Virus record (IMG/VR): IMGVR_UViG_3300021962_000041
Coordinates: 1 to 64,000 of that record
From: a virus
Length of the DNA: 64,000 nt
Reading direction: 5' to 3' (one strand)
The notes beneath the pieces are model-generated. The model did no database searches and was not told the origin of the DNA. It worked only from the letters and a program-made list of their open reading frames with translations. The translations under genes and the position numbers were made by a program. How positions within the stretch are numbered: position 1 is the first letter of the stretch; the number at the start of each line of letters is the position of its first letter. This document shows, piece by piece, positions 47,409 through 62,834 of this stretch.

Positions 47409-47437
47409 ATCATACAATATTATGTAGTGGTTGTCAA
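47409..47437 (-). promoter_or_regulatory. Sigma70 promoter TTGACA-N17-TATGAT
   Basis: On the minus strand the perfect -35 box TTGACA is followed, after a 17-base spacer, by TATGAT. It lies about 23 bases upstream of the glycosyltransferase ATG and marks the switch from the late block to host-polymerase transcription. Confidence 0.8.
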
Positions 47438-47607
47438 TTACTCCGTTCTGTAATGATAACCTCATTACCTTCTAGGGCAATCCGAACTTCCGTGTCTTCG
47501 TACCACTCTAGTTCATTGATTATCTCTTCAGGTATTGTTATAAAATACTCCCCCGTTATTGGATCGACTTGTACGGGCACAAATTTATCTCCGGAATTTT
47601 TTCTCAT
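47434..47607 (-). CDS. AbrB/MazE-fold small protein
   Basis: 57 residues starting MRKNSGDKFVPVQVDPITGE. The pattern VQVDPITGEYFITIPEEIIN, followed by WYEDTEVRIALEGNEVIIT, is the swapped-hairpin layout of the AbrB/SpoVT/MazE DNA-binding family. It might repress phage or host promoters. An upstream in-frame extension exists but is basic and unlike the family. It overlaps the promoter of the glycosyltransferase gene at its 3' end. Confidence 0.7.
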   Translation of the reverse strand: MRKNSGDKFVPVQVDPITGEYFITIPEEIINELEWYEDTEVRIALEGNEVIITERSN

Positions 47608-49097: not shown

Positions 49098-49123
49098 GTG
49101 TGCCACCTCTTCAACTGGCACAC
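49098..49123 (-). repeat. TGTGCCA-type hairpin holding the stop codon
   Basis: Perfect 8-bp stem GTGTGCCA/TGGCACAC with a 10-base loop. The TGA stop of the 305-residue gene lies in the loop. Confidence 0.7.
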
Positions 49124-50070: not shown

Positions 50071-50094
50071 TGTGCCACCTTGTCAACTGTCACA
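50071..50094 (-). repeat. TGTGCCA-type hairpin at a gene end
   Basis: TGTGCCA ... TGTCACA, a 7-bp stem with one mismatch. The TGA stop of the 57-residue gene is within the arm. Confidence 0.6.
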
Positions 50095-51761: not shown

Positions 51762-51789
51762 CTTGTGACAGTTCAAAAAGTGGCACAAG
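51762..51789 (-). repeat. TGTGCCA-type hairpin between genes
   Basis: CTTGTGACA/TGGCACAAG, a 9-bp stem with one mismatch and a loop of ten bases. It lies between the 52- and 64-residue genes. Confidence 0.55.
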
Positions 51790-51912: not shown

Positions 51913-52071
51913 TCAGAAGATATCGCTGTAATCTTTGATGCTAACATTGACATCCTCATCACCTTCTAGGTGTAGGAGTTCACGCCAATTAATACCTTCT
52001 AGTTCTAGATCTTCATAACACATAAGATCTAGTGTAACTCGTACCATGCGCTTTGCGTGTGTGGTAGGCAT
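51913..52071 (-). CDS. Small conserved protein (52 aa)
   Basis: MPTTHAKRMVRVTLDLMCYE is followed by LEGINWRELLHLEGDEDVNV and ends SIKDYSDIF. It has a beta-alpha-beta layout; proteins with a VTLDVxCYxDL...NWRxLL pattern recur in cyanophages. It has a good sigma70 promoter (TTGCAT-N17-TATAAT) about 25 bases upstream and is the first gene downstream of the palindrome array. Confidence 0.7.
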   Translation of the reverse strand: MPTTHAKRMVRVTLDLMCYEDLELEGINWRELLHLEGDEDVNVSIKDYSDIF

Positions 52072-52095: not shown

Positions 52096-52124
52096 ATTAT
52101 ATCATGCATAATGACGATATGCAA
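52096..52124 (-). promoter_or_regulatory. Sigma70 promoter TTGCAT-N17-TATAAT
   Basis: Perfect -10 and good -35 boxes with optimal spacing on the minus strand, in front of the 52-residue gene. It overlaps the last codons of the Asp/Tyr-rich gene. Confidence 0.7.
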
Positions 52125-52251
52125 GCGTTTCGTAATCTTGCCCATCTCGTGCATAATCCTCGTCGAGATCTGCATCTTGTGCATAATACTCGTCGAGATC
52201 GTATGTGTAATCTGATGCGTATGTATAGTCGAGATCGTAGTCGTCGTACAT
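52102..52251 (-). CDS. Asp/Tyr-rich repeat protein (49 aa)
   Basis: Starts MYDDYDLDYTYASDYTYDLD and ends DYETLAYRHYA. It consists of near-repeats of DLDEYYAQ/DLDEDYAR and is very acidic. The repeat codons are exactly the ATCTCGACGAG palindromes of the regulatory array, so either the gene grew from the array or the array is constrained by both roles. A small acidic, DNA-mimic-like protein is possible, but whether it is translated is not certain. Confidence 0.45.
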   Translation of the reverse strand: MYDDYDLDYTYASDYTYDLDEYYAQDADLDEDYARDGQDYETLAYRHYA

Positions 52252-52411
52252 AATGCTCGTCGAGATTTGTGTGATGCTTATGTATTGTAGCATAAAGCTC
52301 GACGAGATTGCAAGCCCTTATGATGCACACGTCTCGTCGAGATTCATGATAGTATATATACACTCTTGTCGAGATTTATGTGCTTCTCGTAACATAAGTC
52401 TCGTCGAGATT
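52159..52411. repeat. Array of about eight TCTCGWCGAGA palindromes
   Basis: Copies of the 11-base palindrome (CTCGTCGAGAT on the plus strand, some CTCGACGAG or degenerate) are centred near 52,164, 52,194, 52,228, 52,261, 52,302, 52,337, 52,370 and 52,404. The spacing is 30-41 bases, mostly 33-35. Copies at 52,228 and 52,370 carry one or two changes. Several are followed on the minus strand by a TATG. The array overlaps two promoters, which fits an operator array for a dimeric repressor or activator. Confidence 0.8.
52284..52313 (-). promoter_or_regulatory. Sigma70 promoter with a palindrome in the spacer
   Basis: TTGCAA-N18-TACAAT on the minus strand, with TGC before the -10 (extended -10). 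The spacer contains CTCGTCGAG, one unit of the array. Binding of a protein there should block polymerase. Confidence 0.6.
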
Positions 52412-52437
52412 CTAGCACGAACTTATAAGAATGTCAA
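52409..52437 (-). promoter_or_regulatory. Sigma70 promoter TTGACA-N17-TAGAAT
   Basis: Near-consensus promoter on the minus strand. The first array palindrome starts within the -10 box, so a bound protein would sit at the start site. It would drive the accessory genes of block A. Confidence 0.75.
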
Positions 52438-52676
52438 GGTCTGGGAATTTCTGGGCGTCCCCGGGGGTTGACAAACTGCGCGTCTTATGATACGCTGGCA
52501 AAGGTTGCAATAAGAACCAGTATTTTCTTACTATTCTCAATAAAACCTTTTATTTATTCTCATTTACAAAACGCTTATTGAGAATCACCAAATATTTAAT
52601 CTCACAATAACAATCATAACTATCTAAAATAACATATAAGATATATACAATAATTAAAGTGTTATCTAAAATATAA
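52412..52676. other. AT-rich intergenic region without a gene
   Basis: About 265 bases between the palindrome array and the plus-strand endonuclease. It holds a GC-rich CCCCGGGGG block, the promoter above, and three TATTCTCA/TTATTGAGAAT repeats at 52,532-52,586. The last 90 bases are very AT-rich and form the leader of the endonuclease. I see no coding frame and no tRNA. Confidence 0.5.
52532..52586. repeat. Inverted TATTCTCAATAA / TTATTGAGAAT repeats
   Basis: TATTCTCAATAA, ATTCTCATT and TTATTGAGAATC. The outer pair is an 11-12-base inverted repeat with a 31-base gap. It matches the two copies at 51,853-51,888. Confidence 0.5.
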
Positions 52677-53486
52677 ATGTCCCAAGGAATCATCTACCTC
52701 ATCATCAACAAACAAAACGGACACAAATACGTTGGACAAACCACCCAAGGAATGAATAAAAGGTGGCAACAACATATACAAGAAGCATTGCGAATGAGTG
52801 ATAAACCACTACATCGTGCTATGCGTAAGTATGGCAATCACAACTTTATGATTAAAGAAATAGATGAGTGTGATGAAAGTTTATTAGATGAAAAAGAACA
52901 ATATTGGATAGAACAATATAATACCTTTGAAAGTGCAGAAGGTTATAATGCAACAAGTGGTGGAAGTCGTCCAATCTTTAGTAATGAAACAAAACAAAAA
53001 TTAAGTGAAATAGCATCTAATAGAGAAAGAACAGAAGAAGAAGTTGCTAATATAAAAACTGCTTTAACTGAAAAAGCAAAAGAAAGAAATTGGGGATTCT
53101 TAACTGATGAGAACAGAGGTAATGGTAAACACTCTGGCATCAAGATACAAGGACTGAATATCGAAACAGGTGAAATAAGAGAATGGGATAATGCCCGTGA
53201 TGCTGCAGAAGAAGTTGCTGGTGATCGTAATAAGAACAGCAATATCTTATTAAGTGCTAAGAAAGGATATAAGTGTTATGGTTATAGATGGAAACTACTT
53301 GAACAAAAGAGTAAGAAAAAAGCAGTCAAAGCAGTTAATAAAATAACATGGCAGGAACATCATTTTGAAAGTATTGCCGATGCGATTAGAAAAGTTGGTG
53401 GTAATAGCAGGGGGACTGGACTAATTAAATCATTAAGAAGTAATGGACGTTATACTTGGAAAGGATTTATGTGGTTTTATATTTAA
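52677..53486 (+). CDS. GIY-YIG homing-type endonuclease
   Basis: 269 residues and the only clear plus-strand gene. The N-terminus reads GIIYLIINKQNGHKYVGQTT, the GIY-YIG strand pair, followed by the conserved Arg in KRWQQHIQEA. Further on are YGNHNFMIKEID and the metal-binding Glu region in LLDEKEQYWIEQYNTFESAE. FSNETKQKLSEIASN is a NUMOD3-type DNA-binding repeat, and two NUMOD1-like segments (IREWDNARDAAEEVAGDRNK, HHFESIADAIRKVGGN with RYTWKGFMW) follow. It looks intact. It is free-standing between blocks A and B, opposing the local direction of transcription, as expected for a mobile gene. Confidence 0.92.
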   Translation: MSQGIIYLIINKQNGHKYVGQTTQGMNKRWQQHIQEALRMSDKPLHRAMRKYGNHNFMIKEIDECDESLLDEKEQYWIEQYNTFESAEGYNATSGGSRPIFSNETKQKLSEIASNRERTEEEVANIKTALTEKAKERNWGFLTDENRGNGKHSGIKIQGLNIETGEIREWDNARDAAEEVAGDRNKNSNILLSAKKGYKCYGYRWKLLEQKSKKKAVKAVNKITWQEHHFESIADAIRKVGGNSRGTGLIKSLRSNGRYTWKGFMWFYI

Positions 53487-62357: not shown

Positions 62358-62834
62358 TTATACTGCCTGCATCAGACGATTGGGGAAGCAATGTGACACT
62401 TGTTGAACTGGCACATTCAATTCGTCAAACAAATACTCCAGATATAGTGTTTCTTCTTGCTCCCGTGCCTCTATTTCGTGTGCTTGATGCCAATAGTCCA
62501 CATTTTCCATGCATTCTTTACCATAATACATTTTTCCGCTTCGCAACCGCAGTGAACCGACTACCCACTGCCGTAGATGGGTCAGTTCATGTAAAAGAGT
62601 TTTTATATACAACTCCTCCTCCATATGGGTGTTCAGTTCAATCAGGAAGTGACGGGGGCGATAGGTTTCACCCACAACGTCACAATACCCATAGACACAC
62701 TCACGATTCAGACCACGATGCACAATATCCACCGTGATCTTGTGGCGGGGAAAGAACTTATTCAGAAACCAAGTGGTAACATCCTCGCAGACCCGCTTGC
62801 GATAACCATATCCAGAATGCGTGATGTAAGACAT
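62358..62834 (-). CDS. SprT-like zinc metalloprotease
   Basis: 158 residues from MSYITHSGYGYRKRVCEDVT. The zinc motif HELTH at 82-86 is followed by LRQWVVGSLRLRSGKMYYGK and a helix with HEIEAREQE at 119-127, whose Glu or His would be the third ligand. This resembles the SprT/Spartan type of small metalloprotease. Spartan removes DNA-protein crosslinks, so a DNA repair role is possible. The end of the gene contains a hairpin element in its coding sequence. A TATAAT box overlapping its stop may drive the next gene. Confidence 0.8.
   Translation of the reverse strand: MSYITHSGYGYRKRVCEDVTTWFLNKFFPRHKITVDIVHRGLNRECVYGYCDVVGETYRPRHFLIELNTHMEEELYIKTLLHELTHLRQWVVGSLRLRSGKMYYGKECMENVDYWHQAHEIEAREQEETLYLEYLFDELNVPVQQVSHCFPNRLMQAV
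62390..62417 (-). repeat. TGTGCCA-type hairpin inside the metalloprotease gene
   Basis: AATGTGACA/TGGCACATT, a 9-bp stem with one mismatch. It lies in frame near the 3' end, coding for NVPVQQVSH; the loop lacks the TGA found in other copies. Confidence 0.55.

Follow-up and report, generated by a model that had tools for sequence, protein, structure and literature searches.

An array of palindromic operators over the promoters of T4-like cyanophages appears, from its sequence and distribution, to be a switch, not described before, that controls a block of small genes. The array itself is real and is conserved in relatives, and it is almost certainly a regulatory element that binds a protein. 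I read it, with some confidence, as a multi-operator site at which a dimeric, probably cooperative and probably phage-encoded repressor would shut early promoters.

The array and its conservation in cyanophages

The window analysed here is a stretch of 64,000 nucleotides, positions 1 to 64,000 of the 114,868-base IMG/VR record IMGVR_UViG_3300021962_000041 (G000). The repeated site is dyad-symmetric, TCTCGWCGAGA, with the extended form AATCTCGWCGAGATT. A sequence-only reading of the window had counted about eight copies, and eight are confirmed at 52158-52409: seven differ from the word at no more than one position, and the remaining, degenerate copy differs at two (Table 1). Their start-to-start spacings are 30, 36, 31, 42, 35, 32 and 35 bases; the regular array described earlier thus stands, with the upper end of its range corrected from 41 to 42. 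The central W is oriented alike in seven of the eight copies, one operator being reversed. Six instances of the core CTCGWCGAGAT exist in the full 114,868-base record, all of them within the array, which is also the record's sole match in a de novo search for clustered palindromes. When the surrounding 2 kb was simulated 1,000 times with a second-order Markov model, no cluster of more than one site arose. An Rfam search returned nothing significant, and the word was not found described in the literature searched (open-licence papers only). One literature match, from DLP6, was rejected as a predicted terminator.

Table 1. Features of the array and its surroundings, in window coordinates.
Feature	Position	Strand	Remark
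57-aa SpoVT-AbrB/MazE-fold protein	47434..47607	-	candidate regulator; same strand, about 4.5 kb downstream of array
PHROG 12516 ORF	51913..52071	-	function unassigned; first after D/Y-rich ORF; conserved array neighbour
Promoter-like P3, TTGCAT-N17-TATAAT	52096..52124	-	overlaps last codons of D/Y-rich ORF
Conserved 49-aa acidic D/Y-rich ORF, MYDDYDLDYTY...LAYRHYA	52102..52251	-	three operators and P3 -35 inside
Operator copy CCTCGTCGAGA	52158..52168		within D/Y-rich ORF, D-L-D-E codons
Operator copy ACTCGTCGAGA	52188..52198		within D/Y-rich ORF, D-L-D-E codons
Degenerate operator copy TATAGTCGAGA	52224..52234		two mismatches; within D/Y-rich ORF
Operator O2 GCTCGTCGAGA	52255..52265		42 bp from O1; 3 bp before ATG of D/Y-rich ORF
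Promoter-like P2, TTGCAA-N18-TACAAT	52284..52313	-	O1 in spacer
Operator O1 GCTCGACGAGA	52297..52307		within -35/-10 spacer of P2
Operator copy TCTCGTCGAGA	52332..52342
Operator copy TCTTGTCGAGA	52364..52374
Operator copy TCTCGTCGAGA	52399..52409		abuts -10 of P1
Promoter-like P1, TTGACA-N17-TAGAAT	52409..52437	-	last base is edge of copy 52399-52409
Divergent promoter-like TTGACA-N17-TACGCT	52468..52496	+	conserved; points away from array; TATAAT in some relatives
AT-rich zone	52530..52670		beyond divergent promoter; position conserved in relatives

Paired words 18-34 bp apart were found in at least 120 IMG/VR contigs, against a single contig for a scrambled control palindrome of the same composition in the same scan. 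Named carriers among T4-like cyanophages are S-SRM01 (three arrays), P-SSM2 and S-T4; the fragment AG-345-L05 also has an array, and S-SKS1 has two exact sites. The array was not found in Bellamy, S-SM2, S-SCSM1, S-PM2, B23, S-CREM1, S-SZBM1 or S-RSM4. It lies upstream of the neighbouring PHROG 12516 ORF in 64 of the 68 loci anchored on that ORF, which are the closest relatives, so that this fraction is not a family-wide rate. The operator letters are near-constant across very diverged phages and hosts. Searched for in relatives, as the earlier reading had proposed, TCTCGWCGAGA clusters are conserved upstream of the small-gene block with their spacing and spacer position kept, and the operator idea therefore stands.

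Across 119 distinct arrays the site spacings gather around 24, 32 and 42 bp, and gaps separate these groups. Their periodicity power is about 72-80 at periods of 9-10.5 bp, an interval within which the exact period is not sharply defined, compared with a jittered-null maximum of 25. Conserved dyads at helix-like spacing fit a dimeric or cooperative binder. The operator reading suggested at the outset is strongly supported by the conservation of the word, the spacing and the position in promoter spacers in many diverged relatives.

Some array-like records call for separate mention. In S-T4 (NC_048049.1) the array appears twice, near the two ends of the record (2747-2934 and 174316-174503), which suggests redundant ends in the assembly. 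S-CAM7 carries, upstream of the same neighbour gene, ATACTGCGCAGTAT-like repeats with spacings of 33, 21 and 34 (L252:2105-2290), and a second small set of them near 56.9 kb of its record. These are possibly an operator of changed specificity, and I treat them as a lead only because the stringent palindrome scan missed them and a pattern scan gave no relatives. L588, considered as an array with a coherently changed operator, was rejected as a mix of degenerate sites.

Promoters and the coding copies

The three leftward sigma70-like promoters proposed earlier are present with the elements claimed for them (Table 1). The same-strand small-gene block into which they point leads to a glycosyltransferase-like gene (T4-GC 102), SAM decarboxylase, gp25, gp6 and gp7. 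P-SSM2 and S-SRM01 have the same gene order after the array, and the position of the array ahead of the block leading to gp25/gp6 adds to the support for the operator reading. Copies do lie under and between the promoters, as the sequence-only reading held, but the three leftmost are not intergenic: they fall inside a 49-codon minus-strand ORF (52102-52251) that it overlooked.

Of 72 distinct upstream regions from relatives, 71 have a sigma70-type promoter whose spacer is occupied by a site, and the spacer around this O1 equivalent is 17 bp long in 58, 18 in 11 and 16 in 2. The -35 of these P2-like promoters is TTGCAT, TTGCAA or TTGACA, the -10 is TATAAT in 40, and O1 and O2 are 39-43 bp apart in most relatives. 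In well-studied repressors a dyad between -35 and -10 blocks polymerase. P3 has its -35 in the conserved tail of the ORF and its -10 after the stop codon, and both elements are kept in 59 of 75 distinct sequences of relatives. Relatives also carry further arrays between genes, before two other small genes, with no recognisable sigma70 promoter (S-SRM01, L008, L031, L045, L082 and others). Thus, simple promoter occlusion does not explain all arrays, and the promoter-less ones may act as roadblocks or looping sites.

The D/Y-rich ORF (full product MYDDYDLDYTYASDYTYDLDEYYAQDADLDEDYARDGQDYETLAYRHYA) belongs to a family present at 105 of the 126 loci examined, with annotated counterparts in P-SSM2 (PSSM2_098, T4-GC 94) and S-SKS1 (SWZG_00191); Sf-CH5 has a similar ORF, ending LQELAYKHYAC, and no array. 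Because its members differ in length in frame, and R, H and Y codons show synonymous variation in their third base, the ORF very likely encodes a real protein. Within its DxDE motif the leucine codon is CTC in 60 of 72 cases and CTA in 11 (background 15% and 12%), the second D is GAC in 80% (background 30%), and E is GAG in 94% (background 41%). These codons are forced to the operator spelling, which means that selection on the coding copies also acts at the DNA level. A conserved small protein whose codons serve as operators as well represents an unusual overlap of selection.

Other elements recur around the arrays. Four hairpin-like repeats, TGTGNCAGTT-N-GTGNCACA, occur at 49099-49122, 50071-50094, 51764-51787 and 62392-62415, where chance predicts none, and relatives have similar hairpins within their second-type arrays. 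On the opposite strand a GIY-YIG endonuclease gene (52677-53486, +) adjoins the array, a related gene holds the same divergent place at about 26 other arrays, and the arrays of S-SRM01 have HNH genes close by. Some arrays are flanked by a gene (L064:2445-2915 and relatives, family 29) that matches the anti-restriction family phrog_36653 (E 4.5e-14) and scores below cut-off against ArdA. From such matches, part of the array-linked block may serve counter-defence.

Candidate binder and proposed mechanism

What, then, might bind the array? Genome comparison left an AbrB-like protein of 57-63 aa as the only plausible regulator common to all array-bearing phages and mostly missing from array-less ones. 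Swapped-hairpin dimers of the AbrB/MazE type recognise dyad DNA, and autorepression is common among them. The gene was found in every array-bearing complete genome tested, its counterparts being PSSM2_102 in P-SSM2 and gp185 in S-SRM01; Bellamy and SynMITS9220M01 gave no match, and S-SM2 and S-PM2 only a weak one. Of the 21 arrays for which 7 kb of sequence or more was available, 18 have the gene on the same strand, 3.7-9.5 kb further downstream. Among loci that were anchored on T4-GC 102 and extended 5 kb or more upstream, 13 had both array and gene, none the array alone, 10 the gene alone and 13 neither, a co-occurrence that is confounded by clade, since the split follows clades.

The family scores of the window's protein fall under the cut-offs for both PF04014 (21.2 bits against 24.7) and TIGR01439 (12.6 against 28.3). 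Its structure model (pLDDT 78.7) has MazE, AbrB and SpoVT as top PDB fold matches, at probabilities of 0.97-0.99 but E values of 0.03-0.2. A PDB sequence search with the AbrB-like profile gave no meaningful match, and a plasmid search found no AbrB-like homologue. The role remains a lead because the protein is acidic (pI about 4.2), because Sf-CH5 and ACG-2014f have the gene where no array was found, and because operator and protein do not covary, both protein subtypes occurring with the same operator. At this point the protein is the best single candidate for the binder, and I put it forward tentatively.

The near-constancy of the operator could equally mean a constant host factor. A host transcription factor shared by Synechococcus and Prochlorococcus would then bind the word, and the multi-site phage version would tie transcription to the state of the host; host PhoB, which binds cyanophage promoters, is a precedent (PMC10976474). 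I consider this unlikely, as a search of 84,980 species genomes gave no palindrome pair in any cyanobacterium, its 42 matches look scattered and chance-like, and array-less cyanophages of similar hosts manage without the word.

A phage-encoded repressor would work as follows. Before it builds up, the near-consensus promoters would fire on host sigma70. A dimeric DNA-binding protein would then recognise the dyad AATCTCGWCGAGATT, and with copies about 2.3, 3 or 4 helical turns apart, bound dimers could cooperate or loop the DNA. O1 fills the spacer of P2, the main leftward sigma70 promoter, a neighbouring copy abuts the -10 of P1, and O2 and the copies within the first ORF are placed just beyond the predicted start site. 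With these operators occupied, RNA polymerase would be kept off and elongation halted, so that the promoters of the small-gene block before gp25 would be closed. Should the binder be the AbrB/MazE-fold protein, whose gene lies downstream and points the same way, the result would be a negative feedback loop. The sites, their conservation, spacing and promoter position, and the selection on the coding copies as DNA are seen in the sequences; early timing, repression, cooperativity and a binder encoded by the phage are what I infer.

T4-like cyanophages are very abundant in the sea. In T4 itself, transcription is redirected by MotA and AsiA once the early phase is over. Neither motA/asiA nor T4-like middle promoters are present in T4-like cyanophages (PMC5780444). 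A conserved array over sigma70 promoters would explain, in a concrete form that can be tested, how some of them shut down a block of early genes, and the operator array provides a DNA bait with which the regulator could be found.

Alternative readings and known systems

The array might instead belong to a replication origin, its operators being iterons for an initiator and the neighbouring divergent promoter and AT-rich zone an R-loop primer, as in T4 oriF/oriG. The plus-strand element at 52468-52496 had gone unnoted in the sequence-only reading. In relatives it is followed by a conserved CGCTAAACTCACAAGACC-like stretch and then the AT-rich zone, and the pair, TTGACA-N17-TATAAT-like element and AT-rich zone, is kept also in the array-less Bellamy, S-SM2, SynMITS9220M01 and Sf-CH5. 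The array moreover precedes gp25/gp6, and roughly the corresponding part of the T4 gene order contains origins, oriF adjoining gene 25. However, a change in GC skew is absent at the array in this record, S-SRM01, P-SSM2 and S-SKS1, one operator runs opposite to the rest, promoter spacers contain operators, and some relatives have several arrays per genome. The iteron set offered earlier as an alternative is thus weakened by the absent skew switch and helped by the divergent promoter and AT-rich zone that adjoin the array; on balance I regard an origin as improbable. The segment 52468-52670 could itself be a small RNA or a transcription-primed origin. An ambitious combination of these ideas is a phage-encoded cooperative nucleoprotein switch at one to three arrays per genome that would turn sigma70 early transcription off, run by the AbrB/MazE-fold protein from the same operon in place of MotA/AsiA, with the divergent promoter and AT-rich zone making the same hub a transcription-primed origin. 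It is a long shot; if true, the end of early transcription and the onset of replication would be linked at a single site.

Alternatively, the word could be mainly a coding or RNA feature, either D-L-D-E repeats or leader-RNA sites for a translational regulator, with the upstream copies as decayed coding repeats. Three copies are coding, and the promoter-less arrays of relatives stand just before start codons. However, codon choice is forced to the operator spelling, five copies lie upstream of the ORF, one of them in the P2 spacer and outside the P2 transcript, and helix-like spacing has no evident meaning for RNA. This makes the reading very unlikely. MerR-type promoters have long spacers of 19-20 bp. 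Activation of that type, with a dimer bound between -35 and -10 raising rather than blocking transcription, would account for the spacer dyad but is also very unlikely, since 58 of 71 spacers measure 17 bp and none is over-long, the -10 is near consensus, and many flanking copies would be unexpected.

The reading as a repressor-bound operator array can be set beside several known systems. Host PhoB boxes, including those at S-PM2d promoters, are likewise regulator sites before cyanophage genes, but they differ in sequence, answer to a host regulator and form no array (PMC10976474). The candidate protein resembles the SpoVT-AbrB/MazE swapped-hairpin regulators by fold match and weak family scores; unlike them it falls below the curated cut-offs, is acidic and has no identified toxin partner, and its DNA binding is putative. 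The iteron cluster of T4 oriE, located ahead of gene 6, is likewise made up of short repeats at even spacing, but shares neither sequence nor dyad with the array, and was rejected as a relative because the repeats found near oriE are 24-base coding repeats of gene 5. Mycobacteriophage L5 stoperators are, like the present operators, many copies of one repressor site, some of them off promoters. Stoperators are asymmetric and scattered over the L5 genome, whereas the operators described here form palindromes grouped into one to three arrays. Finally, the temperate repressor operators of the lambda OR/OL type share with the array several dyads, helix-related spacing and a position within or against the promoter core. 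The array differs in belonging to T4-like cyanophages, which are regarded as lytic, in having a candidate repressor only, and in extending to as many as eight copies over about 250 bp, three of them inside coding sequence.
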